Shown: in pieces, positions 1 through 42,515 of the stretch
How positions within the stretch are numbered: the stretch's first letter is position 1
Layout: every line of letters begins with the position of its first letter
Assembly: GCA_024180945.1 (NCBI GenBank)
Contig: JAKSGN010000036.1
Coordinates: forward strand, 1 to 64,000
DNA length: 64,000 nucleotides
Direction of reading: 5' to 3'
Origin: Macrophomina tecta
Lineage: Eukaryota > Ascomycota > Dothideomycetes > Botryosphaeriales > Botryosphaeriaceae
Notes under the pieces: generated by a model
Told to the model about the DNA's origin: nothing
The model's database searches: none
The model's input: the letters and a program-made list of their open reading frames with translations, nothing else
Position numbers and translations under genes: made by a program

Positions 1-1090
1 TGAATTTGTACGCCGGGCTGTCCCAATCGTGCTGCCGCTGCGTCCGCATAAAAAACATCAACACCTGCTCCCACGACCGGGCACGGTCCTTGATCGATTC
101 CTCGTCCATATACGGCTGCAACGGCTGATATCGGGTCTGATGCTTCTCCGTCCTGATCGCCTGCATCCGCATCGACACGCCCGCCCGCTTCGCCACGCTC
201 TCCTGACTAATGCGGGCAACGTCCTCCATCGCCTGCCACACGGCCGTCTCGATCGGCTCGTTCGGATCGTCTTTTTCCTTATCGGCGGGCTTCCATCGTC
301 TGTTCTTCTTTTCGTCCTCCTCGCCGCCCGGCTTGACGATGCACCGCGACAAATCCTCGCGGTTCTTGCCGGCCAAATACTTCTGCCACTGCGTCCGCTC
401 CAACCACGGGTTCGCCTGATCCCTCTCGGCGTCCTGAACGACGGCGGCTGCCTCCTTCTCGGCCTGCTCGAACCGGGCCTGCATCTGCTGCCACGCCCGC
501 GTCCACGTGTCCCTGCTACTATCGTTGCTGCCGCCGTTGCCGTCTTCGCGCGTTCCATTCTCTTCCTCTGCCGGTTGCTGCACCTCGAAATACTGCGATC
601 CGTGCCGGCTCGTGAAAAATCGCTGACAATGCACCCGCCTCACTGCTTCCTGAAACCGCCTCTCGACCCGCTCGCCCTTGCTCTTGCCCGACCCGCCCTT
701 TCGGCTGCCGGCCGACCACTGATGCTCGATGCGCCAATGCTTCTTCATCGTCATTCTGTCCCGGCAAATATACCGGCACCCGTCGGGCTGTAACTCGCAC
801 ATTAACCCGTCCTGATGCAACGGCAACTCCGGGATCGGCCTGTCGATGCCTGCGGGCGCCTGAAATTCTCCGGGGGACCTGATTAATCCGGCAAACGCCA
901 CGACCTCCTCCGCGATCGCCTCTGCGTTCTTTCCGCTGATGCCGTGATGTCTGCCCTGCAAATGCCCTGCCACCTGATCCGGCCACACCGCGTGCCGGCA
1001 CTCCTTGCACACGACGACTCCAAATTCTCCTAACCCTAAATGATGAAAATACTCCGCTGTTTCGGCCATGTTGACTTGCGCTTGCTGCAT
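1..1090 (-). CDS. Telomere-linked RecQ-type helicase (TLH) copy 1, N-terminal part only, cut by window edge
   Basis: Only the first ~363 codons are present, and the frame is open to position 1. The ATG (complement of 1088-1090) lies upstream of two zinc-finger-like patterns. The first is a CKECRHAVW...HLQGRHH segment. The second is a C-x3-C...H-x4-H finger, followed by a CQRFFTSRHGSQYFEV segment. These are features of the OrsD/DUF3505 family. An in-frame ATG seven codons further in (MAETAEYF) aligns with the start of the third copy and is an equally good start. The stretch looks identical to 4410-5499, so this is a recent duplicate. By comparison with the copy at 7790-12836, the missing part would hold the recombinase-like and helicase domains. 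Whether it is functional cannot be judged here. Confidence 0.8.
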   Translation of the reverse strand, partial: MQQAQVNMAETAEYFHHLGLGEFGVVVCKECRHAVWPDQVAGHLQGRHHGISGKNAEAIAEEVVAFAGLIRSPGEFQAPAGIDRPIPELPLHQDGLMCELQPDGCRYICRDRMTMKKHWRIEHQWSAGSRKGGSGKSKGERVERRFQEAVRRVHCQRFFTSRHGSQYFEVQQPAEEENGTREDGNGGSNDSSRDTWTRAWQQMQARFEQAEKEAAAVVQDAERDQANPWLERTQWQKYLAGKNREDLSRCIVKPGGEEDEKKNRRWKPADKEKDDPNEPIETAVWQAMEDVARISQESVAKRAGVSMRMQAIRTEKHQTRYQPLQPYMDEESIKDRARSWEQVLMFFMRTQRQHDWDSPAYKF

Positions 1091-1488
1091 GCTCGTTATT
1101 TCGCTGCTATCTGCTTATTCTTTCGCTGCGTTGATGCGGGAAACCACCCTTTGCTATCGAACTAACTACTTTAACCCTTGCTCTTAACTCTCTGACTCGG
1201 CGCCTGCTGCACGTTCGCGCGCTGCGTGCCTACCCGGCGAATGCGCGCTCTTTAACCACTACCGCGCTCGGGCCGCTCTTACCCCATCAACCTTACCCTA
1301 ACTTACCCCAACTGCCAAATTACGCTCGAACACGCGATCGGGCGGGCATGTCATACGCAAAAATTCTTATCGCCTAACCGCGCTCTGCAACATATCTTAA
1401 TTTAACGCGAATCCGACATCTTTTTTCTGAATCGACCGTACTCAATCGACCGTACTCGTAACCCTAACCCTAAACCTTAATTTTGTAT
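1091..1488. repeat. TLH 5' flank, copy 1, with short telomere-like tract
   Basis: Non-coding flank upstream of TLH copy 1. It recurs nearly base for base at 5500-5897 and, from the gggaaaccaccc motif on, at 6178-6529. It contains a telomere-like tract (aaccctaaccctaaacc, 1460-1476) and, just before that, two copies of tcgaccgtactc. The promoter of the TLH gene must lie here. No TATA box stands out. Confidence 0.8.
1460..1476 (+). repeat. Interstitial telomere-like tract (CCCTAA type)
   Basis: Two-plus copies of the C-strand telomere repeat, aaccctaaccctaaacc. The same tract occurs at 5869-5884 (one base shorter), 6501-6517 and 13161-13174, always upstream of a TLH gene or TLH flank. The C-rich strand is the + strand, as expected if the telomere lies or once lay to the left. 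Confidence 0.75.
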
Positions 1489-1537
1489 GGGACCTGAATC
1501 GACCCTTATAACGGTCGATTCACTCCTTTCGGTTTGG
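1489..1537 (+). repeat. Single subterminal hairpin unit at a TLH junction
   Basis: One copy of the unit beginning ggacctgaatcgaccc and ending ctttcggtttgg. It contains inverted arms gaatcgacc and ggtcgattc around cttataac. It ends abruptly at 1537, where the truncated helicase of TLH copy 2 begins (catcatgct...). Confidence 0.85.
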
Positions 1538-4500
1538 CATCATGCTACGCGGCTCGCCCGCGTGCACGATCAACCTGATGCCCGGTATATCGATCCCCAT
1601 CCCCAACGCGCTCGTCGCCACTACCACCCGTTCTCTACCCACTCGGAAATCCTCCAACACCTCGTCCTTTCGCCGCTCGCTCATGTCTGCCCGGAATTCC
1701 TCGCACGCGAACCGGCCTGCTTTCGCCAACCGCTCCACCTCCCCCGCGTCTTGCAATAAACTACTACTTTCCCCTCCGCCGACGCCCTCAACTCCCGATC
1801 CACTAACTCCGCTACCAAATCCTCCTGCTCCTTCCTACTACTCTCCTTCCTGCCAACCACCCGATACCGCACGTTCTTCCGCACCGTCGACCCCCTAAAC
1901 ATCTTTACCTCGTCCGCCCTCCATCCCATCCTTTTATACAACCTGCTCTCCTCCGCCGCCGGCAATGTCGCCGTTAATAATATCATCTGCGTCTCTACTC
2001 CCGCCAACTTGCCCAACTGCTGCAAATGCTTCCGAAAATCCACCCTATCGTTCAACACGACGTGACATTCGTCCACCACGATACGGTCCAACTGCCTCGT
2101 CCGCCTGATGCGCTTTAAAAACGTCCCGAACTCCTCGCCCACCGCCGCCTCCGGCGTCACCAACACGATCGACTCCGCATCCGCCTGCCGCCTGCCGCCC
2201 CATACCGCGCACCGCACCCCCGCCTCATCGCACCGCCGCTTCATATCCTTCCGCAACGACTTCAACGGCACCACTACTACTGTCGTGCCACCGGGTTCTG
2301 CCCACGCCGGCAATGTGAATAACACGCTCTTGCCCGCCCCCGTCGGCATCACTGCCACCACGGGGCTGTGCCCTGCCTTGATCGCATCCAATGCCGGCTC
2401 CTGCACGCTGCGGAAAACCGCCTCCTTACCCACCAACTGCCGCAACTGTTCCTCGGCATTCATCTTGTTTAACCGGATCCAACGATCCAACCGCTCCTCT
2501 TCCGCCTCCTCCTCGAACGGGCACCGCTTGCGCTTTTTGCTCGTCGCCTTGCTATCCGCCGCCTCGTTCCGCTCGTCTGCCTGACCCGTCGGTTCGAATC
2601 CTAAAAATCGGTGCCAATCGACGCTGCACGCCCGGAACTGCTGCCTTCGTTCTGCCACCCACCCCAACTGCTCCATGATTCCCCTCGCATATACGATTCC
2701 CGCCACGTGCGACGTGTGCCCTGCCTGCGCGTCCGCGATCGCCGCCGCCATGCCGTCCTCATCCTGCCGCTGCTCGCTATCGTCTCCCTCTCCATCGTCC
2801 TGCCTGAACGCCGTCGGCCCGCGGATCCACTGCCTGCTGATTGCTATCGCGATATCACGATACGCCCGCACCGTGACTTCATGCCCTAACCCCGCTGCTG
2901 TCTCCCGCTTAATCGCCTGTCTCATCCGCTCCGTCGTCCACTTCTTGCCCCCGGGCTCGGCTGCCCATAAATGCGCGGACAACGGCGGCGACTGCTCCTG
3001 CTCCTGCTGCTGTTGCTCCTGCTGCTGCTCCTGCTGTTGCTCCTGCTGTTGCTCCTGCTGCTGCCCCTGCCGCTGCCCCTGCTGCTGCTTGCCTCGTATC
3101 AACACCTCAATTCTCTGCTGAAACGGCAAAACCAACCACAAATACCACACCAACAACTCGCCCACCTCGCGCGGTAAATACCGGTGAATGATCTTGACAT
3201 CTCCCTGCAACGCGTACCCCTTGTGATACCGCGTAACAAACACGACCATCCCGTCTTCGATGAAAATATGCCGGTGCCCCGCCTCCGCCGTGTTGCTGTG
3301 CCTGATACTTAATATCTCCGGCCCTCTCGCCGGCTGCCCGCCCGTTATGTGCATCAACACCAATAACTTTTCCTTAAACGCCGCAACCCGGCTCATCCAA
3401 TCCGATACCGCCTCGCGGCTCAACCCCGACGCCGTCCCCTGCCGGGTGAACCGCTTTCTGACCGCGCCGTTCTGCATAATCTGCTCGAACAACCACGACC
3501 TCCCGTCCACGGGGAATCTGTTGCGCTGATCCTGCAAAAAATTCCACCCTCGACGGCCGTTTGTCGGGTCGTCATGCATCGAATGCCACGGCACCGCGGG
3601 CACCTCCCGCCGGCTTTTGCAAAACAACAAATCCTCGACCAACACCTGCGCCGTCGTCTGCGCCAAACCGTGTACCATCCCGCGGAACTGCGCCATGCTG
3701 AACGATATGTTCTTGTACTCCAACACATCTCTATCCCTCCACCCGACGTGCCCTTTCGCCGTTGTGTTGAAATGAATCTTCATACCATACGCCCGCAAAT
3801 CCAAAAACCACTGCATCGGGCTGTCGCTGCCGCGGACCATGAAATCGTCCATCATCTTGTTCACCCACTGCAACCCGCTCCTGCCGGGGCGCCTGCTGCT
3901 CTCGCCGCTTCTACTGCTTCCCCCGCTTTCGTATCCACTATCTTCGAAATCACACGGCCTCGCGCTCGCGCTAAAATGCTCGTTCTCCTCCGCCGGCGTT
4001 GCTACCTCGAATGCCTTCTGAATGACCATGAAATGCGCCACCTTGATCAACGCCGATAAAATCGACCCGTATGTCTCCGGGCCTCTCCAACTGTTGTCCG
4101 TCGGGTCGACTCCTAACACGGCGGCGGCGCATACCAACGCACTCTCGTACTCGCGCTCGACGAATCGTTGATTCAACAACTCGATGCAAAAATCTAAACA
4201 TGCCCGTTGAATCGGGGTTAATTTTTGCCACTTCTCTTCGTCCTTCTCGTTTGTCTCGCTTTCTTCCTCGTCGCCTTCCCCTTCTCCCTCCTCTTCTGCT
4301 TCCTCGTTATCTTCGTTTTCTTTGTTACTTTCTTCCCCATCTTCGCCTCCTTCTACCTCCCGCTCTGCCTCTTCGACCAATCTGACGAATGCTTCGAACT
4401 GACTGCGGGTGAATTTGTACGCCGGGCTGTCCCAATCGTGCTGCCGCTGCGTCCGCATAAAAAACATCAACACCTGCTCCCACGACCGGGCACGGTCCTT

Positions 4501-5499
4501 GATCGATTCCTCGTCCATATACGGCTGCAACGGCTGATATCGGGTCTGATGCTTCTCCGTCCTGATCGCCTGCATCCGCATCGACACGCCCGCCCGCTTC
4601 GCCACGCTCTCCTGACTAATGCGGGCAACGTCCTCCATCGCCTGCCACACGGCCGTCTCGATCGGCTCGTTCGGATCGTCTTTTTCCTTATCGGCGGGCT
4701 TCCATCGTCTGTTCTTCTTTTCGTCCTCCTCGCCGCCCGGCTTGACGATGCACCGCGACAAATCCTCGCGGTTCTTGCCGGCCAAATACTTCTGCCACTG
4801 CGTCCGCTCCAACCACGGGTTCGCCTGATCCCTCTCGGCGTCCTGAACGACGGCGGCTGCCTCCTTCTCGGCCTGCTCGAACCGGGCCTGCATCTGCTGC
4901 CACGCCCGCGTCCACGTGTCCCTGCTACTATCGTTGCTGCCGCCGTTGCCGTCTTCGCGCGTTCCATTCTCTTCCTCTGCCGGTTGCTGCACCTCGAAAT
5001 ACTGCGATCCGTGCCGGCTCGTGAAAAATCGCTGACAATGCACCCGCCTCACTGCTTCCTGAAACCGCCTCTCGACCCGCTCGCCCTTGCTCTTGCCCGA
5101 CCCGCCCTTTCGGCTGCCGGCCGACCACTGATGCTCGATGCGCCAATGCTTCTTCATCGTCATTCTGTCCCGGCAAATATACCGGCACCCGTCGGGCTGT
5201 AACTCGCACATTAACCCGTCCTGATGCAACGGCAACTCCGGGATCGGCCTGTCGATGCCTGCGGGCGCCTGAAATTCTCCGGGGGACCTGATTAATCCGG
5301 CAAACGCCACGACCTCCTCCGCGATCGCCTCTGCGTTCTTTCCGCTGATGCCGTGATGTCTGCCCTGCAAATGCCCTGCCACCTGATCCGGCCACACCGC
5401 GTGCCGGCACTCCTTGCACACGACGACTCCAAATTCTCCTAACCCTAAATGATGAAAATACTCCGCTGTTTCGGCCATGTTGACTTGCGCTTGCTGCAT
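1538..5499 (-). pseudogene. TLH copy 2: zinc-finger / tyrosine-recombinase-like / RecQ helicase, truncated and frameshifted
   Basis: A 1272-codon frame runs from the ATG at 5499 down to 1681. N-terminal OrsD-like zinc fingers are followed by acidic low-complexity sequence and a middle domain with R725 (GGQPARGPE), K760 (RYHKG), R881 (AYRDIAIAIS), H928 and Y937 (GHTSHVAGIVY), which resembles a tyrosine recombinase core. A Q/E-rich spacer (2990-3080) interrupts that domain. The helicase follows, with Walker A K1057 (PTGAGKS), DECH box D1143 and TATLP. A one-base deletion near 1750, relative to the third copy, shifts the frame after VVVYCKT. The old frame resumes at 1756-1538 through ATSALGMGIDIP and stops dead at GEPRSMM. 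Motif VI and the C-terminal zinc region are missing, so the helicase should be dead. The sequence shows no RIP. Confidence 0.88.
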
Positions 5500-5897
5500 G
5501 CTCGTTATTTCGCTGCTATCTGCTTATTCTTTCGCTGCGTTGATGCGGGAAACCACCCTTTGCTCTCGAACTAACTACTTTAACCCTTGCTCTTAACTCT
5601 CTGACTCGGCGCCTGCTGCACGTTCGCGCGCTGCGTGCCTACCCGGCGAATGCGCGCTCTTTAACCACTACCGCGCTCGGGCCGCTCTTACCCCATCAAC
5701 CTTACCCTAACTTACCCCAACTGCCAAATTACGCTCGAACACGCGATCGGGCGGGCATGTCATACGCAAAAATTCTTATCGCCTAACCGCGCTCTGCAAC
5801 ATATCTTAATTTAACGCGAATCCGACATCTTTTTCTGAATCTGACCGTACTCAATCGACCGTACTCGTAACCTAACCCTAAACCTTAATTTTTGTAT
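5500..5897. repeat. TLH 5' flank, copy 2
   Basis: Near-identical to 1091-1488, with a few substitutions and small indels, for example tttgctctcg for tttgctatcg. It carries the same telomere-like tract at 5869-5884. It is non-coding and presumably holds the promoter of TLH copy 2. Confidence 0.8.
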
Positions 5898-6180
5898 GGA
5901 CCTGAGTGACCCTTATAACGGTCGATTCACTCCTTTCGGTTTGGGACCTGAATCGACCCTTATAACGGTCGATTCACTCCTTTCGGTTTGGGACCTGAAT
6001 CGACCCTTATAACGGTCGATTCACTCCTTTCGATTTGGGAACCTGAATCTGACCCTTATAACGGTCGATTCACTCCTTTCGGTTTGGGACCTGAATCGAC
6101 CCTTATAACGGTCGATTACTCCTTTCGGTTTGGGACCTGAATCGACCCTTATAACGGTCGATTCACTCCTTTCGGTTTGG
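5898..6180 (+). repeat. Tandem array of six ~47-bp hairpin units (subterminal repeat)
   Basis: Six head-to-tail copies of ggacctgaatcgaccc...cactcctttcggttt, 45-48 bp each, with point differences (gagtgaccc, cgatttgg, gattactcc). Each unit contains a perfect dyad, gaatcgacc...ggtcgattc. The array ends at 6180 and is joined directly to an internal point of the TLH 5' flank (gaaaccacc). A single copy stands at 1489-1537 and at 6530-6578, and a degraded relative at about 13447-13495. Confidence 0.93.
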
Positions 6181-6529
6181 GAAACCACCCTTTGCTATCG
6201 AACTACCTACTTTAACCCTTGCTCTTAACTCTCTGACTCGGCGCCTGCTGCACGTTCGCGCGCTGCGTGCCTACCCGGCGAATGCGCGCTCTTTAACCAC
6301 TACCGCGCTCGGGCCGCTCTTACCCCATCAACCTTACCCTAACTTACCCCAACTGCCAAATTACGCTCGAACACGCGATCGGGCGGGCATGTCATACGCA
6401 AAAATTCTTATCGCCTAACCGCGCTCTGCAACATATCTTAATTTAACGCGAATCCGACATCTTTTTTCTGAATCGACCGTACTCAATCGACCGTACTCGT
6501 AACCCTAACCCTAAACCTTAATTTTGTAT
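6181..6529. repeat. TLH 5' flank, third copy (fragment without its gene)
   Basis: Matches 1141-1488 almost exactly, starting inside the flank rather than at a gene, and includes the telomere-like tract at 6501-6517. Its left end abuts the hairpin array. On the right it runs into another hairpin unit. Confidence 0.85.
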
Positions 6530-6578
6530 GGGACCTGAATCGACCCTTATAACGGTCGATTCACTCCTTTCGGTTTGG
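6530..6578 (+). repeat. Single subterminal hairpin unit at the LINE junction
   Basis: Same unit as at 1489-1537. After cggtttgg the sequence switches to LINE coding sequence (gttccggggcac). Up to three bases (ggg) of microhomology blur the join. Confidence 0.85.
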
Positions 6579-7130
6579 GTTCCGGGGCACGTCAACGTGC
6601 ACGGAAATGAGGAGGCCGACAGACTTGCTAAACAAGCAACGTTAATCCCCCCTACAACAGAAGACACTTCTGTTGCATTCTACGGAATGCAACTAAAAGA
6701 AGTTCTCTACAACGAGTGGAAAAGCCAGCTCTTATCAGTTCCCAGCTCAGCCTACAGTAAAGCATTTACCTGGAAGATAAAGAGGAAGCTGATCGCCCCT
6801 ACTACAGTAAGGGAAACAGCTTCCTCCTTCTACCAGCTGAAGATTGGACACGGGTACTTCAAGTCCTATCTCTACCGTTTTAACCATGTAGAGGATGATA
6901 GATGCTACTGCTCTGGTACGGCAAAGCAAACACCGAGACATCTCCTCTTAGACTGTTATTTATATAGAGCTGAAAGGCTCTCTATAAAAGACGCTCTGGA
7001 GAAACCTATTCTTAATCTTACGGACCTATTCACTACAAATAAAGGCGCTCAAGCAACAGCTGAGTTTCTTAGAAAAACCAAGATATCTACGCGCCGGTGG
7101 ATTCTTAACAACACGCCCGACGGGGTTTAA
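6576..7130 (+). pseudogene. LINE ORF2 C-terminal fragment: RNase H end plus zinc-like tail
   Basis: About 184 codons ending in TAA at 7130. The start matches the last RNase H motif of LINEs, WVPGHVNVHGNEEADRLAK. A cysteine/histidine pattern (CYCSGTAKQTPRHLLLDC) near the end is usual for the C-terminus of fungal LINE ORF2. Endonuclease, reverse transcriptase and most of RNase H are absent. The first in-frame ATG (6528) lies in the subterminal repeat and makes a meaningless fusion, so this is a fragment and not a gene. Confidence 0.85.
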
Positions 7131-7361
7131 ATACGTCCGACGCTTACACTCCTTTGTTTTCTATTACTATTCTCTTATACTATCTCCTTAGAGGCCTGCC
7201 TCTCGTTTGGCTTTTAAGTCTACTATTCCTTGTGCTCTCCTAGAATGCTTCTTTTACAAGGAGCCTCTAGAAAATGTATAACTAGAAACGGCTTCTAAAG
7301 CCCGTCTTTGATAGTCTCTGACTCAAGAAGGACGTTAAACTAAATAAATAAATAAATAAAT
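6576..7361 (+). mobile_element. 5'-truncated LINE (non-LTR retrotransposon), 3' end with (TAAA)n tail
   Basis: Contains the C-terminal part of a LINE ORF2, a ~210-bp 3' UTR (7131-7340) and a tail of five TAAA units (7341-7361). Such short tandem tails are typical of fungal non-LTR elements. The 5' break is at the hairpin unit. I could not find target-site duplications. Codon use is ordinary and there is no RIP. Confidence 0.85.
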
Positions 7362-7789
7362 TACTACCCTCTACCCTCCGCCTCTATTATCGCCCCCGCT
7401 TAATCTACTATCGAATAACCACGCTATTGCGTTCTTTAATACCGTAAAATAATGCCTGTGCGCTCTCTATTCTAATAAATACCTAACTCGCCATCCTCCA
7501 ATTTTTATACTTATAAATCTGCCGATTTTTTAAACGTACAAAACCCCCATCGCCCTCCACCCTACCTCCCCACCCCCCGCGCTTTCCCACCACCTATTCC
7601 CTATCATACATCTATTTTACGCTGCTTTTACCGTTCGTACGCCGTGCTTCGGCTTCTTTGCTTTACGCGCGCGCTCGATCTCTCAATATCAATCTATCTT
7701 AACCTAAACTTACACCAACCCTCACACCTACCCTTGCACTCCTACACCCACCCTTAAACGCCACTACCCCCCACCGACGCTCCCTAACA
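7362..7789. other. 3' flank of TLH copy 3
   Basis: Pyrimidine-rich sequence downstream (minus sense) of the TLH stop codon, partly AT-rich. I see no gene, repeat or RNA in it. It lies between the LINE tail and the TLH stop at 7790-7792 and probably includes the TLH 3' UTR. Confidence 0.5.
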
Positions 7790-10700
7790 TCACCCCTCCC
7801 CGCCTATGCTATCTACCCGCCGCGCCAACCATAAAAATTCCCAAACTAAATTATTACTCTCCACCTCTGCCGTATCCCGCTTTCGCCCTAAATACCCGAC
7901 CACACTCTCCTCCTGCTCTGCATCTACTCCATTCTCTACTATCTGCTGCAACCACCTTCTCCAAACTGCCCCGTACCCGTGCTTGATCCCGTACAATGCC
8001 CCCAACAATACTCCACTGTACTGACATTCCCGCCCCGTCCTTCTCCACCCGCCGCTGTCGTTGCTCTCCCACCCATCACACACGCTCTGCGGCGCCCCGC
8101 ATCTAAAACACCCCGAATATCGGTCGTACCTGATCGTCCGCTTTGCCTTGCGCCTTTCATCCTCTGCCTGCTGTCCCTTCTCCGTCATGCAATCGCCAAC
8201 GTCATGCTCTGCCGGCCACCCTACCGCCTTGCACACCCCACAAACCCGCTTCCACCGCCGCAATTGCCGCTCTACTTCCTCCAACTCCTGCCTCTCCTCC
8301 TGCGCCCTCGCCGCCTGCCTTATATACGGCCGGGCCCGTTGCTGCTCCTGCCTACGGAATATCTCCCTGCTCTTTTCCCGCTCTACCTGCTCCCGCTCCA
8401 CCCGCTCTCTTTCTATTCGCTCCTTCTCCATTTGCCCCCTTTCTATTTGCTCCCTCTCCGCCTGCTCTACCTCTGCTCCTCGCCTTTCCCCGTCTCCCCC
8501 GCAATTATCACACAATTCTTCGCCATCCTCGCATGAAATTCGCCCCCTCCGGCCATCAAAATACTCGTCCATGATGATACGGCGGCACTGCCCGCTTGCC
8601 GGATCCGTATACTGCTCGACCAACTTATCCTCCACCTCCCCACCTCCCCCTCTGACCACAATTGCCTCGCTCCTTCTGCCGTCTCTCCCTGCCCTGCCGC
8701 TCTCCTGCCCGTAATCCATCATGCTGCGCGGCTCGCCCGCATGCACAATCAACCTAATGTCCGGAATATCAATCCCCATGCCCAACGCGCTCGTCGCCAC
8801 CACCACTCGCTCTCGGCCTGCCCGGAAATCCTCCAACACTTCGTCCTTGCGCTGATCGCTTATATCGGCGTGAAATGCTTCGCAAACGAACCGGCCTGCC
8901 CCTACCAACCGCTCGACCTCTCCCTTCGTCTTGCAATAAACCACCACCTTGCCCTCCGCCGACGCCGTTAACTGCTGCTCCACCAACTCCGTCACCAAAT
9001 CCTCCTGCTCCTTCCTGCCGCTCCCCTTCCCACCTACCACCCTATACTGCACGTTCTTGCGCACCGTCGACCCCCTAAACATCTTCACTTCGTCCGCCAT
9101 CCACCCCATCCGCTTGTATAACCTGCCCTCCTCCGCCGGCGGCAACGTCGCCGTCAACAACACCATCTGCGTCTCCGCCCCCGCCAACTTGCCCAATCGC
9201 TGCAAATGCTTGCGAAAATCCACTCGGTCGTTCAACACGACGTGACATTCGTCCACGACGATCCGGTCCAACTGCCTCGTCCGCCTGATGCGCTTTAAAA
9301 ACGTCCCGAACTCCTCGCCCACCGCCGCCTCCGGCGTCACCAATACAATCGCCTCCGCGTCCGGCTGCTGCCTGCCGCCCCACACCGCGCACCTTACGCC
9401 CGCCTCTTTGCACCGCCGCCTCATATCCTTGCGCAACGACTTTAACGGCACTACTACCACCGTCGTGCCCCCGGGCTCTGCCCACGCCGGCAACATGAAC
9501 AACACGCTCTTGCCCGCCCCCGTCGGCATCACCGCCACCACGGGGCTATACCCGGCCTTTATTGCCTCCATCGCCGGCTTCTGCACGCTGCGGAACACCG
9601 CCTCCTTGCCTACCAACTGCTTCAACTGCTCCTCGGCGTTCATCTTCCTCAACCGGGTCCGGCGGTTCAACCGCTCCTCGTCGGCCTCATCCTCGAACGG
9701 GCACCGCTTGCGCTTCTTGCTTATCATCTTGCCGTCCATCTGTTCGTCCCGTTCGTACTGTTCGTCTGCCTGGCGGGTCGATTCGAACCCCAAAAATCGA
9801 TGCCAATCGATGCTGCACGCTCGAAACTTCTGCCTCCGCTCCGCCACCCATCCCAACTGCTCCATGATGCCTCGCGCGTATATAATGCCTGCTACGTGCG
9901 ACGTGTGTCCTGCCTGCGCATCGGCAATCGCTGCTGCCGCATCGTCTTCATCCTGCGGCCCTTCATCATCTCCTTCCCCATTATCCTGCCTGAATGCCGT
10001 CGGTCCTCTGATCCACTGCCTGCTGATTGCTATTGCGATGTCGCGGTACGCCTGCACGGTAATCTCATGCCCCAAACCGGCGGCCGTCTCACGCTTCATC
10101 GCCTGCCTCATCCGCTCTGTCGTCCACCTCTTGCCACCGGGCTCGGGCGCCCACAAATGCGCTGACAACGGCGGCAACTGCGGCGGCTTTTGCCTTTGAT
10201 TTTGCCTCTGTCTCTGCTGTTGTTGCCTCTGCTGTTGTTGCCTCTGCTGTTGTTGCCTCTGCTGTTGTTGCCTCTGCTGTTGTTGCCCCTGCTGTTGTTG
10301 CCCCTGCATCTGCTCCTGCGGATTGCCTCGCATCAACACCTCCATTCGCTGCTGAAACGGCAAAATCAACCATAAATACAACACCAATAACTCGCCCACC
10401 TCGCGGGGCAAATATCGATGAATAATCTTGACGTCCCCTTGCAACGCGTACCCCTTGTGATACCGCGTCACAAACACGACCATGCCGTCCTCGATGAAAA
10501 TGTGCCGGTGCCCTGCCTCGGCTGTGTTGCTGTGCCTGATGCTTAATATCTCGGGGCCTCTCCCCGGCTGCCCGCCCGTGATATGCATCAACACCAACAA
10601 CTTCTCCTTGAACGCGGCCACGCGGCCCATCCAATCCAACGCGGCCTCGCGGCTCAACCCCGACGCCGTCCCCTGCCGGGTGAACCGCCTTCTGACCGCG

Positions 10701-12836
10701 CCGTTCTGCATAATCTGCTCGAACAACCACGACCTCCCGTCCACGGGGAATCTGTTGCGCTGATCCTGCAAAAAATTCCACCCTCGACGGCCGTTTGTCG
10801 GGTCGTCATGCATCGAATGCCACGGCACCGCGGGCACCTCCCGCCGGCTTTTGCAAAACAACAAATCCTCCACCAACACCTGCGCCGTCGTCTGTGCCAA
10901 CCGGTGCACCATACCGCGGAACTGTGCCATGCTGAACGATACGTTCTTGTACTCCAACACGTCCCTGTTCCTCCACCCAACGTGCCCCTTCGCCGTCGTG
11001 TTGAAATGAATCTTCATCCCGTATGCCCGCAAATCCAACCACCACTGCATCGGGCTGTCGCTGCCGCGGACCATGAAATCGTCCATCATCTTGTTCACCC
11101 ACTGCAAACTGCTCCTGCCGAGCTGTCCGGTCCGGTCGTTGCGGCTGTTGCTCCTACTACCGCCACCACTACTTCCGCCGCTTGCCCCCGCCGCTGCCGC
11201 TGCCCCCGCCGCTGCCGCCGCCGCTGCTGCTGCTGCTGCTGCTGCTGCTTTCATACCCGCTATCCTCGAAATTGCACGGCCTTGCGCTCGGGCTATACCG
11301 CTCGTCCTCCTCCGCCGGGGTTGCGATTTCAAATGCTTTCTGAATCACCATGAAATGCGCCACCTTCATCAACGCCGACAAAATCGACGTGTACGTGTCC
11401 GGGCCTCTCCAACTATCACCCATCGGGTCAACCCCCAATACGGCTGCGGCGCACACCGACGCGCTTTCGTACTCGCACGCGGCGAATCGCTGATTTAACA
11501 ACTCCATGCAAAAATCCAAACACGCGCGTTGAATGCGGGTTAACTTCTGCGGTTGACTACTGTCGTCATCATCGCCGTCGCCGTTATCGTCGCTCTCGTC
11601 GGCTTCATCGGTTTCTTTGTTATCGGTATTGCTGGTTTCTTCATCGTCATCGTCGTTTTCTTCGTCCTCGGTTCCGCTGCCGTCTTCCCCCCCTTTCCCT
11701 CCTGCTACCTTCTCGGCCTCATTCATCAATCTGATAAATGCCTCCTCTTGACTGCGGGTGAACCTGTACCCCGGGCTGTCCCAATCGTGCTCCCGCTGCG
11801 TCCTGATGAAAAACATTAATATCTGCTCCCACGGCCGGACCCGGTCCTTGATCGACTCCTCGTCTAAATACGGCTGCAACGGCTGATACCGGTTCTGATA
11901 CTTCTCCGTCCTGATCGCCTGCATCCGCATCGATACGCCTGCCCTTTTCGCCACGCTCTTCTGACTGATGCGGGCAACGTCCTCCATCGCCTGCCACACC
12001 GTCATCTCAATCGGCTTGTACGGGTCGTCTTCTTCTTCTTCGTCGTCGCCGGGGGCCCTCCACCTCCTCTTGTTTTTGTTGTCATCGCCGCCACCCGGCT
12101 CCCTGACGGCCCGCAATAAATCCTCGCGGTTCTTGTTGACCAAATACTGCTGCCACTTCGTCCGGTCCAACCACGGGTTCGCCTGATCCCTCTCGGCGTC
12201 CTGAATGATCGCGGCTGCCGCCTTCTCGGCCTCTTCGAGTTGTTTCTGCATCTGCTGCCACACCCGGGTCCACGTCGCCCTGCTGCCGCGGTCATCCCCT
12301 TCATTGCGGCTGCGCCGGGCCTGATGTTCGCTTGCGTCCTCCTCCGACTGCTGCACCTCAAAATACTGCGACCCGTGCCGGCTGGTGAAAAATCTTTGAC
12401 AATGAACGGGTTTCGCCCCCTCCCAAAACCGTCTCTCTACTCTATCGCTCTTGCTCTTACCTGACCCTCCTCCGGCCCGGCTGCCGCCTGCTGACCACTG
12501 ATGCTCGTTCCGCCAATGCTTCTTTATCGTCACCTTGTCCCGGCAAATATACGCGCACCTACCTGCCTCTAACCGGCATAACAACCCATCTTCGTGCAAC
12601 GGCAACTCCGGAATCGGTCTGCTGACGCTCTGCGGCACCTCAAACTGCCCGGGGAATCTGATCAATCGGGGCCACGCCCTGACCTCGTCTCCAATGACCT
12701 CCGCCTCCTTCCCGGGCATGCCGTGATGCTTGCCCTGTAAATGCCCCTCCACCTGATCCGGCCACACGGCGTGCCTGCACTCCTTGCACACCGCGACCTG
12801 ATGCTCCGCCAAATGATAAAAATGCTCGTTTGCCAT
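7790..12836 (-). CDS. TLH copy 3: near-complete zinc-finger / recombinase-like / RecQ helicase with one frameshift
   Basis: Two overlapping frames, 12836-11169 (555 codons) and 11332-7790, make one protein of roughly 1680 residues if joined. N-terminal part: zinc-finger pattern C17, C20, H32, H37/H38, a second C-x3-C...H-x4-H finger, then CQRFFTSRHGSQYFEV (OrsD/DUF3505-like) and a long acidic tract. Middle part: GGQPGRGPE, RYHKG, AYRDIAIAIS and GHTSHVAGIIYAR, the ordered residues of a tyrosine recombinase. C-terminal part: RecQ motifs PTGAGKS (Lys codon at 9509-9511), VDECH, TATLP, ATSALGMGIDIP and QESGRAGRDG. A cysteine set with the spacing of the RecQ zinc module follows (Cys codons from 8587 down), then an E/R-rich coiled coil and a Cys-rich tail. 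The frame slips in the Ser/Gly-Ala repeat at about 11150-11260. RecQ enzymes unwind DNA 3' to 5'; TLH genes are known from many fungal chromosome ends. Confidence 0.88.
10200..10315 (-). repeat. CAG/CAA-type trinucleotide tract coding a Q/R-rich linker in TLH copy 3
   Basis: Repeated 15-bp units (ctgttgttgcctctg on the + strand) encode QQQQR repeats that split the recombinase-like domain. The equivalent place in TLH copy 2 (about 2990-3080) encodes QQQEQ repeats from ctgctcctg-type units, so the tract has expanded independently in each copy. Confidence 0.8.
11150..11260 (-). repeat. GCT/GCC repeat tract carrying the TLH copy 3 frameshift
   Basis: Runs of gct and gcc triplets. One frame reads Ser/Gly (SSSSSSSSSGGGSGGG), the other Ala. 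The upstream frame stops at 11169 and the downstream frame carries the rest of the protein. The offset equals one extra base (or two missing). TLH copy 2 has a shorter, in-frame Ser/Gly tract here. An assembly error in the repeat is a real alternative. Confidence 0.7.
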
Positions 12837-13500
12837 TGTTGATGTCTGTTCGCGGGACGCGAAAAACGTTTTGAACGGGTTGATCGGGCTAAACGGGCGC
12901 TCGAATACGCTCCTTTTTTTAAATGCGACGCGGTATCGCGCACCCCTGTTCGCGCCTGAATAAACTTAGTTAACCCTACTTTGAATCAACCTTACCCTAA
13001 ATCAACCCTACTTTGAATCCACTCTACTGAATCCACTCTGCTGAATCCACTCTACTGAATCCACTCTACTAAATGCACCCAACTGAACCCACTGCATTCT
13101 AAATCTCCCCTTGTGACGGGGCGCTCACCTTTTCGGTTTTTGAAATGCCATCGTGTCTGCAACCCTAACCCTATTCTGTGCGGCGAGCTTTTGATTTTCC
13201 AAACCGTCGCGCTGGTCCGCGCGCGCACCCGCAGCTTGCGCACCCCATTAAACTTACCCTAAGTTACCCTATCTCACCAATTATGCCCGAACGGACGGTC
13301 GCATCGGCATACTTCTCAATATAATTTTGATCGGGCAGGTGCGCTCTATTATATATCTCAATTTGACGTAAATCCGGCTTCCTTTCTGAGTCGACCCTAC
13401 CCTGAGTCGACCGTACTATCCGCCAGGAAACTACCCGACGAACTTGTATGAGAGCTCAGTCGACCCTTATAGCAGTAGACTCAACTTTTTTGGTTAGAGT
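12837..13500. repeat. TLH copy 3 5' flank, diverged and partly RIP-mutated
   Basis: Shares the plan of the other TLH flanks: gcgcgcacccg and acttaccctaagttaccc stretches, a telomere-like tract (13161-13174) and, at about 13447-13495, a degraded hairpin unit (gagctcagtcgacccttatagcagtagactcaac). The decay rises toward the right, where the RIP block starts. The flank also holds four copies of a 16-bp repeat at 13012-13076. Confidence 0.7.
13012..13076 (+). repeat. Short tandem repeat, 16-bp unit
   Basis: About four copies of ctgaatccactctact upstream of TLH copy 3. No function is evident. Confidence 0.8.
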
Positions 13501-25002: not shown

Positions 25003-25230
25003 TGTCAGACTATTTTGCCTTATTGCTACAGATCAGCATCTACTCTTTGCCACCTCCTCACTACTCCTCATCTTCACAAGCTTCGGATAGCAATATCGGC
25101 TTCTATTCTCCTCGGTTATTCAAGCACTCATTTATGTATATAAGCAAAGCATACCTACCTCCCTCTCAGGAGACAGGCAGAATCTACTCTCTTTCTGACC
25201 TCACTACTCTTCACTCACCCAAATTCAACA
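25003..25230 (+). repeat. Copia 5' LTR
   Basis: Begins tgtcagac and ends attcaaca. A TATA-like tatgtatataag lies at about 25134-25145 and should mark the promoter, with transcription starting shortly after it. Confidence 0.95.
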
Positions 25231-30106: not shown

Positions 30107-30334
30107 TGTCAGACTATTTTGCCTTATTGCTACAGATCAGCATCTACTCTTTGCCACCTCCTCACTACTCCTCATCTTCACAAGCTTCGGATAGCAATAT
30201 CGGCTTCTATTCTCCTCGGTTATTCAAGCACTCATTTATGTATATAAGCAAAGCATACCTACCTCCCTCTCAGGAGACAGGCAGAATCTACTCTCTTTCT
30301 GACCTCACTACTCTTCACTCACCCAAATTCAACA
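30107..30334 (+). repeat. Copia 3' LTR
   Basis: 228 bp, read as identical to 25003-25230, followed by the agtta duplication. Confidence 0.95.
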
Positions 30335-37188: not shown

Positions 37189-39062
37189 CTAGCCTAATAA
37201 TAAAGATAAATAGTATTCGATCGCATTCTATTTAAGAAAGTTTACCTCGGTAGAGCTTAACTATAATACTTATAATAAAGAGCTCTTAGCTATTATCTTA
37301 GTATTTAAATACTAGAGATACTACCTAGAAGAAACTAACTAATAAATAATAGTATATTACGACTATTAGAATCTTATATGTTTTACTATAACTAAGACGC
37401 TAAACTAACGATAGATTCGCTAGTTATAAGAATTAGTATTTTATAATTTTAAGATTATGTATAAAAAAGATATAGATAACGCCGCCGCTAACGCGTATAA
37501 TAAAAGGGTAGACTATATAAAAGAAAAAATCGAGCCGTAACCTATAGTATTATAATAAATAAGCGATAAATTATTTATTTTTACTAGATAGTCTTTCTTA
37601 ATGCTTCGTATTAAGTTAAACCCATAGTATTAAAAGATTTAAGAAGTATACGCTTAGAACTTCTTCGCGTAGAAACTTTTAGCGCTTAAAACGACCTATA
37701 TATTACTTAAGATAGGGAAGAAACACTTCTCTTTAAAGAATTAATCTATATTCTAATAAGACTATAAGAAGTACTCGTTAAGAATATATATATAGTATCC
37801 GCGTATAGATATTAGGGTATTAATAAAATAACTAAAAAAATTACGTAAAACTTCTACTTTCTAGAATTATAAAAAATAGTCTAGTATATAGTTTCGTAAT
37901 ATAATCTTTATATCCGAAGTAAAGCTATAATATACGCTTTATACGGATAACTATAACCCCTAAAAGTACTAAAACGACTATAGTAATAGATTATATTAGA
38001 CTTTATTATAAAGCTACTAAAGTTAAAAGATCCGCTTATAGAAGTTAAGTATAACTTAATTCTAGTCTTTATTAATAAACTTACGAAGTACGCACTTTTT
38101 TTACCCTATCTAGAGATATTAAATATAAAATAACTAGCCTATACGTTTCTCTAATATATCTTCGCGGATCGCGGAATGCCGGAAGTATTAGTTTTAGATA
38201 GAAATAAGCTAATAAAATTAGAATTTTAGTAAATACTTACGCGCTAGCTTAGAGTAAAGAATAAACTCTCTATAACGGTATACGCGTAAACCGACGGCTA
38301 GATAAAATAAATAAACCGAACTCTCGAATAGTATCTTTACTATTATATTAACTATCTATAGAATAACTAGGCTATATAGCTACCTATAGTATAATTTACC
38401 TATAATAGCGCTAAATAAGAGTTAACTAATATATTCCTATTCTTTACTAACTACGGGTTTAAACTAAACGCGTATAGAGAAGCTATTCTAAGTAGAAAAT
38501 TAGCCTAGAAAGGCGTTCTTAAAGCTAAGTAGCTAAGAGAATTATATAAAGCTATTAGTCTTAACCTTAAATATATACGAATTATAATATCTAAATACTA
38601 TAATAAACGGTACTAGGCGGCACTAAACTTTAAAAGAAAGAATAAAGTATACCTCCTTATAAAAAATATTAAATTAAAATAACCGAGCGATAAATTAAAT
38701 TTTAAGAAAATCGGTCTATTCGAAATTATAGAAAAACTTAGAAAAGTTATATATTAACTTAAATTACCTAATATATGAATAAACTCTATCTTTTATATAG
38801 TATTACTTAAGCTAGTACTAGAAAATGCTACTATCCTAGAAACCTAAGAAGAGATTATACTAGAAAATTCTAATACTAAAGAAATCTAGTATCTAGTTAA
38901 AAAAATTCTAGACTATAAACGGTTTAGTCGTTAGCTTAAATATCTTATTAAATAGAAAGGATATGGGAACGAAGATAATTAGTAGATACTAAAGAATAAT
39001 ATATATCTAGACCTAGTTATAGAATTCTACTATTAAAATTCTAATCTTCTATAGAGATAAGG
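37189..39062 (+). pseudogene. Gypsy element E3: RNase H, integrase and chromodomain relic
   Basis: Reads from inside RNase H (YNTYNKELLAIILVFKYWRYYLEE, near 37258-37330), through an integrase at about 37700-38500, to a chromodomain-like end (LKYLIK...KGYGNEDN, near 38930-38990). Stops are of RIP type. The 5' part of the element is missing at the 37188 junction. Its 3' LTR is at 39866-40303. Confidence 0.8.
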
Positions 39063-39089
39063 TTATTTCTAAACAAAAACGACGAAAAA

Positions 39090-39800
39090 CTCTTAAAAAC
39101 TACTAAATCTATTATAAATAGAGATAAACGAGTAGAATTTATAAGCTTAGAAGAATAAGATAATCGTATCTTAGCCCTAGATTCGCTAGCCGACTTAGCC
39201 GCCTACGGCGTAGTAGAATCTACCGACTCGTAACGTAGCTATTTTAATAAGAAGCCCTTAGAATTTTTAGAATTAGAAGAGTTTCCGAAAGAATTCTCCG
39301 CCTTAAAGTATTTTAACTTCTTAAGAAAGTTAAATCCTATATAAATTATTTAAGAACGACGCTTTTTTAGAAAGCGCTACTATTTACGTAATCGCTTTAA
39401 CTTAGTAGCCGCTATTTATAAGATAGTAAAGATTATACTCTTCTCGGCCTTTAAACGTACTTATTTCCGATTAAGCTTATCTACTAAAGAAGGTTAATAA
39501 AGAATAGAAAATAACTAGTAAGAATCTATAACCCGAGTTACTTATCTTAGCGACGTTATATTTCTTTTAGCGAGCCTTAAGGTAAGCCGCGTAGACCTTA
39601 GAATTATCTAGTAATACTATATATTTAGACTCGTACTCTAAATAGTTAGTATAAGAAATTATCTCTACTCTATTTAGAAGAATATCGCGAAGGGTAGAAT
39701 GATATTACTTAGTTAGACGAGAAATAACCTTAGAATTATTAGAGTAGAAATATTTTAAAGTTATAATAAAAACTTATAGGTAGAGAAGAAAAGATAAGAG
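39090..39800 (-). pseudogene. Antisense ORF relic in E3, between chromodomain and 3' LTR
   Basis: The minus strand, opposite to pol, reads a basic/charged, helix-prone segment including AATKLKRLRK...RFLKKRRS and FNFLKKLKYFKAENSFGNSS (about 39440-39240), followed by a Ser/acidic tail. Its position and style match the antisense ORFs of elements E2 and B. The ends are not defined. Confidence 0.55.
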
Positions 39801-39865
39801 ACCTATAGAAAAATATATATAGACGAAAAAATCTTCGAGCCGAAGATCTCTAAAGGGGAAAATAG

Positions 39866-40303
39866 TATTACGGTATAGTCTTTATAAGAGTATAGAAAGA
39901 AAGGTAGAAAAGTCTTAGAAGAGATTCTATCTAGAAAAGACTAAATTACGTAGCTTAGTATATAACCTTTTTTTATAGACCTATATATTACCCTTAAGAG
40001 CCTAGGCTATATAGAATAATAGTCGCCCGGTATAGCTATAGTAATATCTAGTAATACTAGATTATATACGCTTTTCTACTATATATAAACTATACTTCTT
40101 AGATAGCTTTAACCTTCGTAGTTAACTTTAATAATAAAATTTAGACTCTATTAGTAATACGGCCTTTATACGTAGTACTTAGTCTTATTACGTATTTAAC
40201 TTACTCTTACCCTCTTCTTATACCTACTTAAGAAAAACCCCCTTAATAGGTTTTCTCTCTCTTTAGTATTTAGATTCTTAGAGGCAGAGGCCCGCTCATT
40301 ATA
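39866..40303 (+). repeat. Family-4 LTR, 3' LTR of E3
   Basis: 438 bp from tattacgg to ctcattata, preceded by a purine tract (taaaggggaaaatag) and by a cttcgagccgaag palindrome. Its last ~250 bp are the reverse complement of much of the solo LTR at 18875-19320. It is followed by an integrase relic of a different element, so E3 appears to be inserted in E4. Confidence 0.75.
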
Positions 40304-42148
40304 ATTAATTAACTAAGATAGCTTACTTTATTTTTTATTTAGAAATAATAAGCTTAGAAGACCTCGTATAGTTATATTAAAATTATATTTTTAAGCTATA
40401 TAGACTATCTAATAATTAGATAATTAATTATAGATCTATTTTTATCTCTAAGTTTATAAAAGACTTAGCTTATTTACTTAAGATTAAGCTTAACTAAAGT
40501 ATAGTTTTCTATTCTTAAATAAATAGCTAAACTAAATACGTTAATACTATTTTAAAATAGTATCTCCGCGCCTATATTAATTACTAATAAGATAACTAGA
40601 TAGACTATCTTTTTCTTATAAAATTTATATATAATAATATAGTTTTAGCTACTATTAAGGCTATACTTTTTTTTACTAACTATAACTTCTATCTAAGATA
40701 TAAGATTTAATTAAATAAATCTAATATACTCTTAAACTAAAAACTAGTTCTTTATATAGAATAGCTTCGAAATCTAAGAGATTATTTAAAAGCTAAAATC
40801 TATTAGGCTTAAGAATCTATATAAGAATAAGCTAATAAGTATTAGTAATTTTTTTTATTTTCTATTTTAGCTAACTCGTTTAGCTACTTAGAAGATATAT
40901 AATTATTATATAATCTACTAATAAGCTTAATTTTAAAAAACTTAGTTCTTTTAAGATTAAGAATAAGATTTTAAGCTATATATATAAACTAGAGCTCTCT
41001 AGTAGTATATATATTTATTTAGTATTTTATATATTTCTATTAGAATTTATAACCTAAGATCTTCTTCTAGAATAGGTTTAACCTTCGCTATTCTTAGTTA
41101 TAGTTAATAGTATTACTAAATACTATATAGAGAAAATCCTCGATATTAAAAAAATAAAAAACTAACTTAAGTATCTTATTAGATAAAAAAGTTATTTAGA
41201 GCCTATCTAAAAATTTCTAGATATAATTAAAGAGCTTAAAGCCTATAATTATTTTTACTAATAATATTTAAATAAGCTACGAGCTAAATAGCTTATAGAA
41301 ACTTACTTAGAAAGAGAAGTCTACTATTATAAATAATACTCTACCCTAAAGATTACTAAGGACTAAGGCCCCTAACTAAGAATTATAATAAGCTAAATTA
41401 TTTAAAATAGTCTTTACTAAAAGTCTATAGCCTAGCCTTTTTAGATTTAGGCCGAATCTATGGACTTTATAGCTAGAAAACTAGAAAAACTAAGAATAGA
41501 GCCCGTATTAGACTATATTTAGTCTAGTAGATAAGCCTAAGGGCCTAAGCTAGGCCTACCCCTCTAAGTACTCTATATCTACCTAGAGGTTAACCCTTTA
41601 GAATAAAATAAGACTTTCGGATAAGAAACTAGTATAGTTACTAAAGAATTTTTACTAAGAAATACTAGTACTAGTATTATTTATTTAAGAGTTAATAAGT
41701 AATATATCTAGATTATCTAAAGAGATACCTAAGACTAAATAAAATATTTAAATTAGTCTCTTAGAGCTAAAAATATAGACTTAGGATTTAATTATTAATT
41801 CTTATTATAAATATAATAATATAGAAGTCCGTAGACTAATAAAAGTATATTTTTACCCTACTTTTAGTAAGTTAAAATTAAGATCTATATTTATAGCTAG
41901 ATAGACCTCTATTTAAGTTTTAGCTAGCTATATATATAAGTCTCTTTATTTTTCTACTAGATTAGTTCTTTAAGTAAGTAATTTAACTATTTTAATTCTA
42001 AGAAGTTTATCTAAGCTTATTTCTAAGATTTTTAAGACTCGTAGAGCCTTAAGCTTAACTAAGCTAGGCAATAAAAATCTAGTTAGAATCTAAGCACCTT
42101 TATCTAACCCCTATTTATAATAAATAAATAAGAAAGAACTATACTATA
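40304..42148 (+). pseudogene. Gypsy element E4 (family 2), integrase and chromodomain remnant
   Basis: Very AT-rich. The + strand gives the C-terminal half of a gypsy integrase (about 40400-40900) and a chromodomain-like end (LKYLIR...SYLEPI near 41160-41210), then non-coding sequence up to the E2 insertion at 42149. The 3' end of the same element continues after E2, at 57146-57582. This is the most heavily mutated, hence probably oldest, element here. Confidence 0.7.
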
Positions 42149-42515
42149 TATTACGCCGCTACTCTTTCTAGGGGAGGTCAGGCATATCGTCGGGTAGCGT
42201 AGGCTTTCGGGGAGCCGTGGCGGTAGGTAAGAAAGGGTCGCACGTAGTATTAAGATAAGAATTAATTATTAAGTTAACTACGAAGGTCCTATCTACTAGT
42301 AATAAATATAGGTTATATATATTAATCTAGTTAGCTATTTATTAGCTGGAGGTATAGTGTTATTTAGCTAGTATACTAGCTATTAGCCGGGAACGTGTAC
42401 TAGAGATTACGTAGTTTAGCTAATAGAGCTCGGGGCGGCGCTAGATAATCTAGTAGTACTCTTTCTATATCGCCCCTATTGTTCCTACTATATTTCTCTT
42501 TTCTAGGTCGTAATA
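42149..42515 (-). repeat. E2 3' LTR (left)
   Basis: Starts tattacgccgctactc (mutated TGTTAC) and ends tcgtaata. The adjoining inner sequence ctatcccccctctag is the purine tract read on the minus strand. Confidence 0.9.

Follow-up and report, generated by a model that had tools for sequence, protein, structure and literature searches.

TLH genes at the contig end

The window analysed here is a stretch of 64,000 nucleotides from Macrophomina tecta (assembly GCA_024180945.1, contig JAKSGN010000036.1, positions 1-64,000 of the forward strand). It begins with three copies of a telomere-linked helicase (TLH) gene; the products of copies 2 and 3 carry, next to zinc fingers and a helicase, a region resembling tyrosine recombinases. 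The copies and their domains are located as follows.

2..1114, minus strand: TLH copy 1, the outermost; only the 5' part of the gene, the rest being cut off by the contig start; the start of the frame resembles the N-terminus of copy 2
1681..5523, minus strand: TLH copy 2 (type A); stop-to-stop frame of ~1280 amino acids (1279-residue translation), its helicase C-terminal domain truncated at ~1538
5128..5436, minus strand: OrsD zinc-finger domain of copy 2, residues 29-131 (PF12013, E 1.7e-22)
2566..3876, minus strand: tyrosine-recombinase-like domain of copy 2, residues 549-985, enclosing a Q-rich linker
1957..2409, minus strand: RecQ-type DEAD helicase domain of copy 2, residues 1038-1188; the homologous domain of protein P0106 has a RecQ fold
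7790..12965, minus strand: TLH copy 3 (type B), in two overlapping frames (11169-12965 and 7790-11344)
9755..11110, minus strand: tyrosine-recombinase-like domain of copy 3, residues 78-529 of the 7790-11341 frame

An earlier note on this DNA had placed a recombinase-like region between OrsD-type fingers and a RecQ helicase, and a profile scan returned this order, OrsD (PF12013), motif region, DEAD, in both copy 2 and copy 3. A Helicase_C match was obtained for copy 3 and not for copy 2. The reading frame of copy 3 is broken by a frameshift inside a Ser/Ala simple repeat; a type B copy on contig C28 has OrsD, motif region and helicase uninterrupted in one frame of 1722 amino acids, with all five active-site residues described below. 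Types A and B differ by ~12 percent of the protein over residues 528-1261 and by 31 percent over residues 18-546. A third type, C, was found on contig C21 (1621 amino acids, 11766 to 6904), again with all three parts uninterrupted; it is 40 percent identical to copy 2 in the middle and helicase parts and 28 percent in the OrsD part. These genes have the features of the TLH family, namely OrsD and RecQ-type helicase domains and multiple copies at chromosome ends, for which contig ends serve as proxy. A further TLH relative, on contig C8 (G000, 38643-42329; 59 percent identity), contains 117 in-frame stops, mostly TAG or TAA, a pattern of which repeat-induced point mutation could be the source.

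Conservation of five proposed active-site residues

The earlier note had described five motifs of a tyrosine recombinase active site in this region, and we found them in the order and place claimed in both copies. Our residue numbers are exactly 7 higher, because the earlier ones were counted from the Met at residue 8.

3325..3327, minus strand: codon of R732, first catalytic Arg of copy 2 (from motif location, alignment and selection)
3220..3222, minus strand: codon of K767, proposed catalytic Lys in a beta hairpin of copy 2 (from motif location, predicted structure, alignment and selection)
2857..2859, minus strand: codon of R888, second catalytic Arg of copy 2 (from motif location, alignment and selection)
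2716..2718, minus strand: codon of H935 of copy 2 (from motif location, alignment and selection)
2689..2691, minus strand: codon of Y944, proposed nucleophile of copy 2 (from motif location, alignment and selection)
Copy 3, minus strand: R261, K296, R433, H479 and Y488 in the numbering of the 7790-11341 frame

The distance of nine residues from His to Tyr is indeed that of E. coli XerD, as checked on the end of the XerD sequence, and, again as had been claimed, copy 2 has R and copy 3 has Q at the position three residues ahead of the second Arg. For the conservation of the set we searched for homologues with the middle region of copy 2, which gave 604 proteins with E<=0.001 among 7983 scored, and with an Aspergillus member, which gave 251 among 7990; the best 120 of the 604 and the best 120 of the 251, 48 of the latter new, were used. 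The joint alignment comprised 170 sequences, 168 database proteins and two window frames, the N-terminal frame P0003 being left out because it falls short of the motif region. Conservation as stated here therefore applies to these 168 proteins, mostly from what we take to be Dothideomycetes and Eurotiomycetes, with the TLHs of fission yeast, Ustilago, Magnaporthe and Fusarium outside this set; one plant and one bacterial name among the 168 were taken for contamination.

The five columns are nearly invariant: R in 170 of 170 sequences at position 732, K in 169 of 170 at 767, R in 169 of 169 at 888 (one gap), H in 166 of 168 at 935 (two gaps) and Y in 166 of 167 at 944 (three gaps). Among the exceptions, P0167 reads RNARNC and lacks a helicase annotation, and P0067 has Tyr in place of His in the first alignment. 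R and K are 35 residues apart in both window copies and in every printed row carrying the residues, and the same rows all have the His-Tyr distance of nine; the R-to-H distance is 36 to 48 in most printed rows. K and the second Arg are separated by 88 residues in nearly all printed homologues with the shortest linker (63 in one fragment), compared with 121 and 137 in the window copies, where the excess is due to the Q-rich linker, so that the motifs are kept while the linker expands, as the earlier note had it. The type C copy on C21 carries R873, K908, R1000, H1045 and Y1054, with Ala in the place of the second His of the classic tetrad, which means that an independent and much diverged copy retains the set. 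Thus the R/K/R/H/Y residues hold in intact homologues, and the 170 aligned proteins and the type C copy present two Arg, Lys, His/Trp and Tyr in the order of the tyrosine recombinase/type IB topoisomerase superfamily. The position of the classic second His is occupied by Ala (101), Gln (39), Pro (13), Ser (6), His (4), Arg (3) and Leu (2), the HxxR of classic R-H-R-Y integrases and Cryptons being found in only 4 of 170 sequences.

As a chance control we shuffled the 64 conserved among the 391 domain columns; a spaced R-K-R-H-9-Y set appeared in 67 of 20000 shuffles. The control is indicative only, with spacing windows set post hoc, rows P0003 and P0167 omitted and four overlapping residue sets of the required spacing, not one, admitted by the real alignment; read in this way, the sequence pattern appears to exceed chance. 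One homologue, P0098 from Aspergillus nanangensis, contains an internal tandem duplication extending out of the Q-rich linker of its recombinase domain into the helicase; long GFEAGR-type repeats precede the domain.

Predicted fold and profile comparisons

The best matches of the predicted core fold were tyrosine recombinase catalytic domains, which favours the earlier proposal and gives the core the catalytic-domain fold of the tyrosine recombinase/type IB topoisomerase superfamily. The top 22 structural entries were mostly Cre and comprised four or five different proteins of one superfamily, separated from the next entry by a gap of ~3 Z units; no topoisomerase was among the listed matches. 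A second model, of P0106, confirmed the RecQ fold of the helicase but was no test of the recombinase part because helicase entries filled its match list.

Comparison with sequence profiles of integrases and DUF3435 proteins gave a divided answer, HHalign being suggestive and the Pfam, PHROGs, NCBIfam and PDB searches negative. In HHalign the domain aligned with a XerD/phage integrase profile at E 0.05 (catalytic part) and 0.08 (whole domain), and with a profile of 43 proteins and this genome's own Starship captain at E 0.009 and 0.012, respectively. As controls, the OrsD and helicase parts of TLH gave E 0.14 to 0.39, and the accepted relation of captains to XerD reached only E 0.0008 to 0.0013 in the same set-up. 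The catalytic-part alignments paired R732 and K767 with the R and K of both partners, and R888 with its counterpart in XerD as well. In the seven domain members scanned, Phage_integrase and related Pfam families gave no match up to E 10, and PF11917 (DUF3435) gave none. No relatives were confirmed in the bacterial genomes or viral contigs searched.

Selection on the domain

Selection was estimated as the ratio of nonsynonymous to synonymous substitution rates (dN/dS) from one pair, copy 2 (type A) and the uninterrupted 1722-residue frame of C28 (type B). The overall ratio was 0.184, and the lowest values were those of the catalytic parts, 0.047 for residues 700-810 and 0.054 for residues 846-985. 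They were followed by DEAD (0.104), the N-terminal part of the recombinase-like domain (0.111), residues 440-540 (0.135), residues 131-440 (0.259) and OrsD (0.305); the three computable linkers, the Q linker excluded, gave 0.28 to 0.41. Purifying selection in this pair is strongest on the catalytic segments. The codons of Arg888 and Tyr944 differ only synonymously, and the other three catalytic codons are identical. The low dS of the N-terminal part of the domain (0.19) hints at gene conversion.

TLH units and their inner terminus

A genome search found at least 44 TLH matches, distributed over 19 contig ends, with 44 of 44 no more than ~24 kb from the end. The first 1537 bp of the window are identical, with zero differences, at 16 contig ends (the window and 15 others), and variation starts immediately after; of the 18 stretches compared, one starts elsewhere and one is short of its contig end. 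We considered and rejected position 1 as a fixed, real chromosome terminus: on C33 it is the junction of a truncated unit with another unit, so the identical ends are most simply a node of the assembler's repeat graph. The telomere 21-mer (CCCTAA)3CCC has no exact match in the assembly, from which the true telomeres are most simply taken to be absent. The inner, centromere-side ends of the units contain the following features.

1428..1451, plus strand: two direct half-sites, TGAATCGACC (1428-1437) and TCAATCGACC (1442-1451), upstream of the TLH gene
1458..1476, plus strand: short telomere-like stretch GTAACCCTAACCCTAAACC on the centromere side of the unit
1495..1522, plus strand: palindrome TGAATCGACC-CTTATAAC-GGTCGATTCA (10-8-10), candidate recombination site
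1533..1537, plus strand: exact type A unit terminus (TTTG, G); the truncated helicase gene starts at 1538
5898..6182, plus strand: about six tandem copies of a 47-bp terminal repeat containing the palindrome
6536..6578, plus strand: further palindrome and terminus, adjoining a remnant resembling a long interspersed nuclear element (LINE)
13387..13497, plus strand: type B counterpart, with half-sites TGAGTCGACC at 13387-13396 and 13403-13412, a diverged palindrome at 13456-13483 and the terminus at 13497

Type A units end on this side at one exact point, ...CACTCCTTTCGGTTTG(G). We counted 48 such junctions in 20 stretches, beside 19 different 24-base sequences, a few being counted twice as two C21 stretches overlap; with near-identical sequences merged and two tandem variants dropped, 15 contexts remain. 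These include otherwise unidentified DNA, a LINE-like remnant (recognised by eye) and the interior of other TLH units, and the final codons of the type C gene on C21 continue into a type A terminus. Among the longer matches to the 400-bp upstream stretch, 48 of 51 stop exactly at the type A terminus, and type B copies stop at the corresponding point in three different contexts.

The terminus lies 14 bp from the palindrome in types A and B alike, and the two direct half-sites lie 53 and 67 bp from it in type A and 53 and 69 bp in type B. One identical base distinguishes the two types in both half-sites and palindrome arms, as would be expected if a common protein bound them. With 10-bp arms on either side of an 8-bp spacer, the palindrome is shaped like loxP and other recombinase core sites. 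Allowing up to 2 mismatches, we counted the core pattern 150 times in the genome, compared with 5 for the reversed pattern, and every one of the 50 listed places is less than 11 kb from a contig end. The exact outer (3') end of the unit was not found because contigs stop within units, the sole divergence examined being a LINE-like insertion. On contigs C6, C21, C5 and C10, as at 5898-6182 of the window, the 47-bp repeats stand alongside larger arrays (~398 bp of TLH upstream DNA plus 47-bp repeats), which are satellite-like and rejoined at the exact TLH terminus.

Interpretation and alternative explanations

Fold, conservation of the five residues and purifying selection in one pair support the earlier reading, and the stretch between OrsD fingers and RecQ helicase is very probably a divergent tyrosine recombinase domain, laid out, with the same high confidence, as an N-terminal part and, after it, a catalytic part that bears R-K-R-H-Y. 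The domain is probably also catalytically active. Its substrates may be the paired 10-bp arms at the inner unit terminus, where it would aid excision, multiplication or attachment of TLH units at chromosome ends; this we put forward tentatively. Identified in this way, TLH would be a three-part DNA enzyme in which the zinc fingers would find DNA, the recombinase would cut and rejoin it through Tyr944 and the RecQ motor would unwind it; cleavage by the Tyr would fall next to the 8-bp spacer, and the joined end would be opened or extended by the helicase. The most likely reading is that TLH belongs to the tyrosine recombinase superfamily as a DNA-cutting enzyme that is, or recently was, active, and that with its own RecQ motor and zinc fingers it helps its units multiply at chromosome ends. 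TLH genes might even, though we consider this doubtful, form the core of a class of chromosome-end transposons that recognise the arms TGA[A/G]TCGACC at their own terminus and attach by one exact end to broken ends of many sequences, capping and multiplying at fungal telomeres.

Several observations weigh against this reading. Foldseek E-values are weak (best 0.12 against PDB and 0.024 against viral structures, none below 0.001), HHalign gives probabilities of 1-5 percent, no recombinase family came out of Pfam, PHROGs and NCBIfam scans of seven domain members, and a profile search of PDB sequences gave no recombinase match. The stretch holding the His-Tyr segment (469-514 of model 1, 489-530 of model 2) was modelled with low confidence, and the segment is beyond the structurally aligned range, so that H and Y are assigned only from conservation and spacing; confidence is also low for the loop that follows the Lys (329-334). 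In 159 of 170 sequences one of Ala, Gln, Pro and Ser stands where the classic tetrad has its second His. A complete helicase is absent from the most amplified copies in this genome, and the exact terminus is 14 bp beyond the palindrome and not at the spacer, where such an enzyme would cut. Not all copies are at contig ends either: contig C7 contains a probable relative of type C ~100 kb inward (~99904-100365), seen as a DEAD match with a score equal to that of the C21 gene in an open frame of 1805 amino acids.

The main rival is a swivel of the type IB topoisomerase kind, which would nick and reseal one strand and relax DNA ahead of the RecQ motor without moving TLH itself, and would ease replication or recombination of chromosome ends; reverse gyrase, a helicase-topoisomerase fusion, would be its analogue. 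R-K-R-H-Y with a His-Tyr distance of nine and no second His is the set of poxvirus-type topoisomerase IB, the second His is replaced in nearly all TLH members, and RecQ helicases commonly partner topoisomerases. However, the best structural entries are all recombinases, though such a listing leaves room for a topoisomerase, and in this genome's own Starship captain the second-His position is likewise taken by another residue, Tyr, so that loss of the His is no pointer to a topoisomerase; we regard a swivel as unlikely. Less probable still is a retired recombinase kept as a DNA-binding domain, with TLH spread passively by chromosome-end recombination like yeast Y' elements. Sequences at chromosome ends are readily exchanged in many fungi, near-identical units and segmental copies are present at many ends and type A copies have a truncated helicase, but mere binding would not need the Tyr, which distant members keep together with the other catalytic residues, dN/dS is lowest at the catalytic parts, and one exact terminus in 15 contexts is not expected from random end exchange.

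That the domain is no recombinase at all, its five residues reflecting chance among many conserved positions and its fold match a common helical arrangement, seems very improbable to us: the Foldseek and HHalign values are each weak singly and the 22 top entries are mostly Cre, but the spaced pattern arose in so few shuffles, the top entries comprise several proteins of one superfamily well above the next, and the profile alignments put R and K on the right columns unprompted. The palindrome and half-sites, in turn, could well be a promoter (TATA box and sites of a transcription factor that might be TLH itself) unconnected with cutting, to which we give somewhat less than an even chance. They precede the start codon by ~400 bp, the half-sites are repeated in direct orientation and TTATAA can be read in the spacer; against this, the sites lie 14 bp from the exact terminus in both TLH types and are multiplied as 47-bp tandem copies, needless for a promoter. 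Both roles could also go together.

Comparison with known systems

Work by Salimi in 2024 is said to concern TLH in Fusarium. Excerpts of the literature (PMC12857005, PMC4522978, PMC10532341, PMC11457142) describe the TLHs of Fusarium, Magnaporthe and Ustilago (UTASa/UTASb) as multi-copy RecQ-type helicase genes near chromosome ends, and mention an OrsD region for Ustilago UTASb and a recQ-helicase-like gene of Metarhizium. The genes studied here resemble them in helicase type, in copy number near ends and in OrsD. Such genes have been known since at least a 1998 Ustilago paper cited in PMC10532341, and the portions of this literature available treat them as helicases of unsettled role. The portions available of the open PubMed Central (PMC) literature searched (including PMC10799480, PMC12857005, PMC4522978, PMC10532341, PMC11457142, PMC3627910 and PMC9587614) contain no report of a recombinase domain in TLH, and a search of open PMC papers for telomere-linked helicase together with tyrosine recombinase found none. 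With a conserved recombinase domain these genes would have a concrete, testable activity, DNA cleavage linked to Tyr, as well as a candidate site of action, and the reason for their gathering and multiplication near chromosome ends could lie there. If this is true, a puzzling telomere gene family would become one of candidate mobile elements, an apparently uncatalogued family would take its place with Cryptons and Starship captains among fungal tyrosine recombinases, and TLH would be a case of a recombinase naturally fused to a helicase of its own.

With Xer, Cre and integrases TLH shares the predicted core fold, the R, K, R, H and Y residues and the His-Tyr spacing of nine, and differs by the replaced second His, Q-rich and acidic inserts, the fusion to OrsD fingers and a RecQ helicase and the lack of a match in the profile libraries tried. 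Starship captains, which start large internal transposons, are DUF3435 proteins and fungal tyrosine recombinases whose copy here reads likewise without the second His; 43 captain-like exon matches, some in open frames, are spread over many contigs of this genome. The captain motifs ITGSRP..LLALR and YTKGY resemble ITGGQPARGPEILSIR and YHKGY of TLH, as do, by eye, this genome's own captain motifs ITGSRPGALLALR and TYQYTKGY; the TLH domain differs by having no PF11917 match. Cryptons carry a stand-alone recombinase gene at internal sites, and the TLH copies examined were those near contig ends. Telomere resolvases and poxvirus type IB topoisomerases also have R, K, R, H and Y without the classic second His, which is their likeness to TLH, with no structural match listed; resolvases make hairpin ends at a palindrome, and a palindrome is present here, but the exact terminus is off its centre and true chromosome ends are unassembled.

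To our knowledge, the Y' elements of Saccharomyces, telomere-localised like TLH and likewise carrying a helicase gene, contain no recombinase domain. They are amplified in some telomerase mutants, according to an excerpt of PMC4522978. A RecQ helicase on a mobile element is what TLH would share with the DNA transposons KolobokH, described as confined to fungi in the part of PMC9587614 available, and Academ (PMC3627910, likewise in part); the former source gives Kolobok a DDD/E transposase where TLH has the tyrosine recombinase domain.

Other repeats in the window

Several chromosome ends share a LINE-like remnant that here occupies 6522-7360, downstream of TLH copy 3; it has an (ATTT)n tail and, recognised by eye, an RNase H-like frame. 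Identical direct repeats of 228 bp at 25003-25230 and 30107-30334, 5104 bp apart, are perhaps the long terminal repeats of a young retrotransposon. Between 31 and 57 kb, mostly in AT-rich DNA, are several long repeats, inverted and direct, with identities of 73-94 percent; they are likely decayed transposons.

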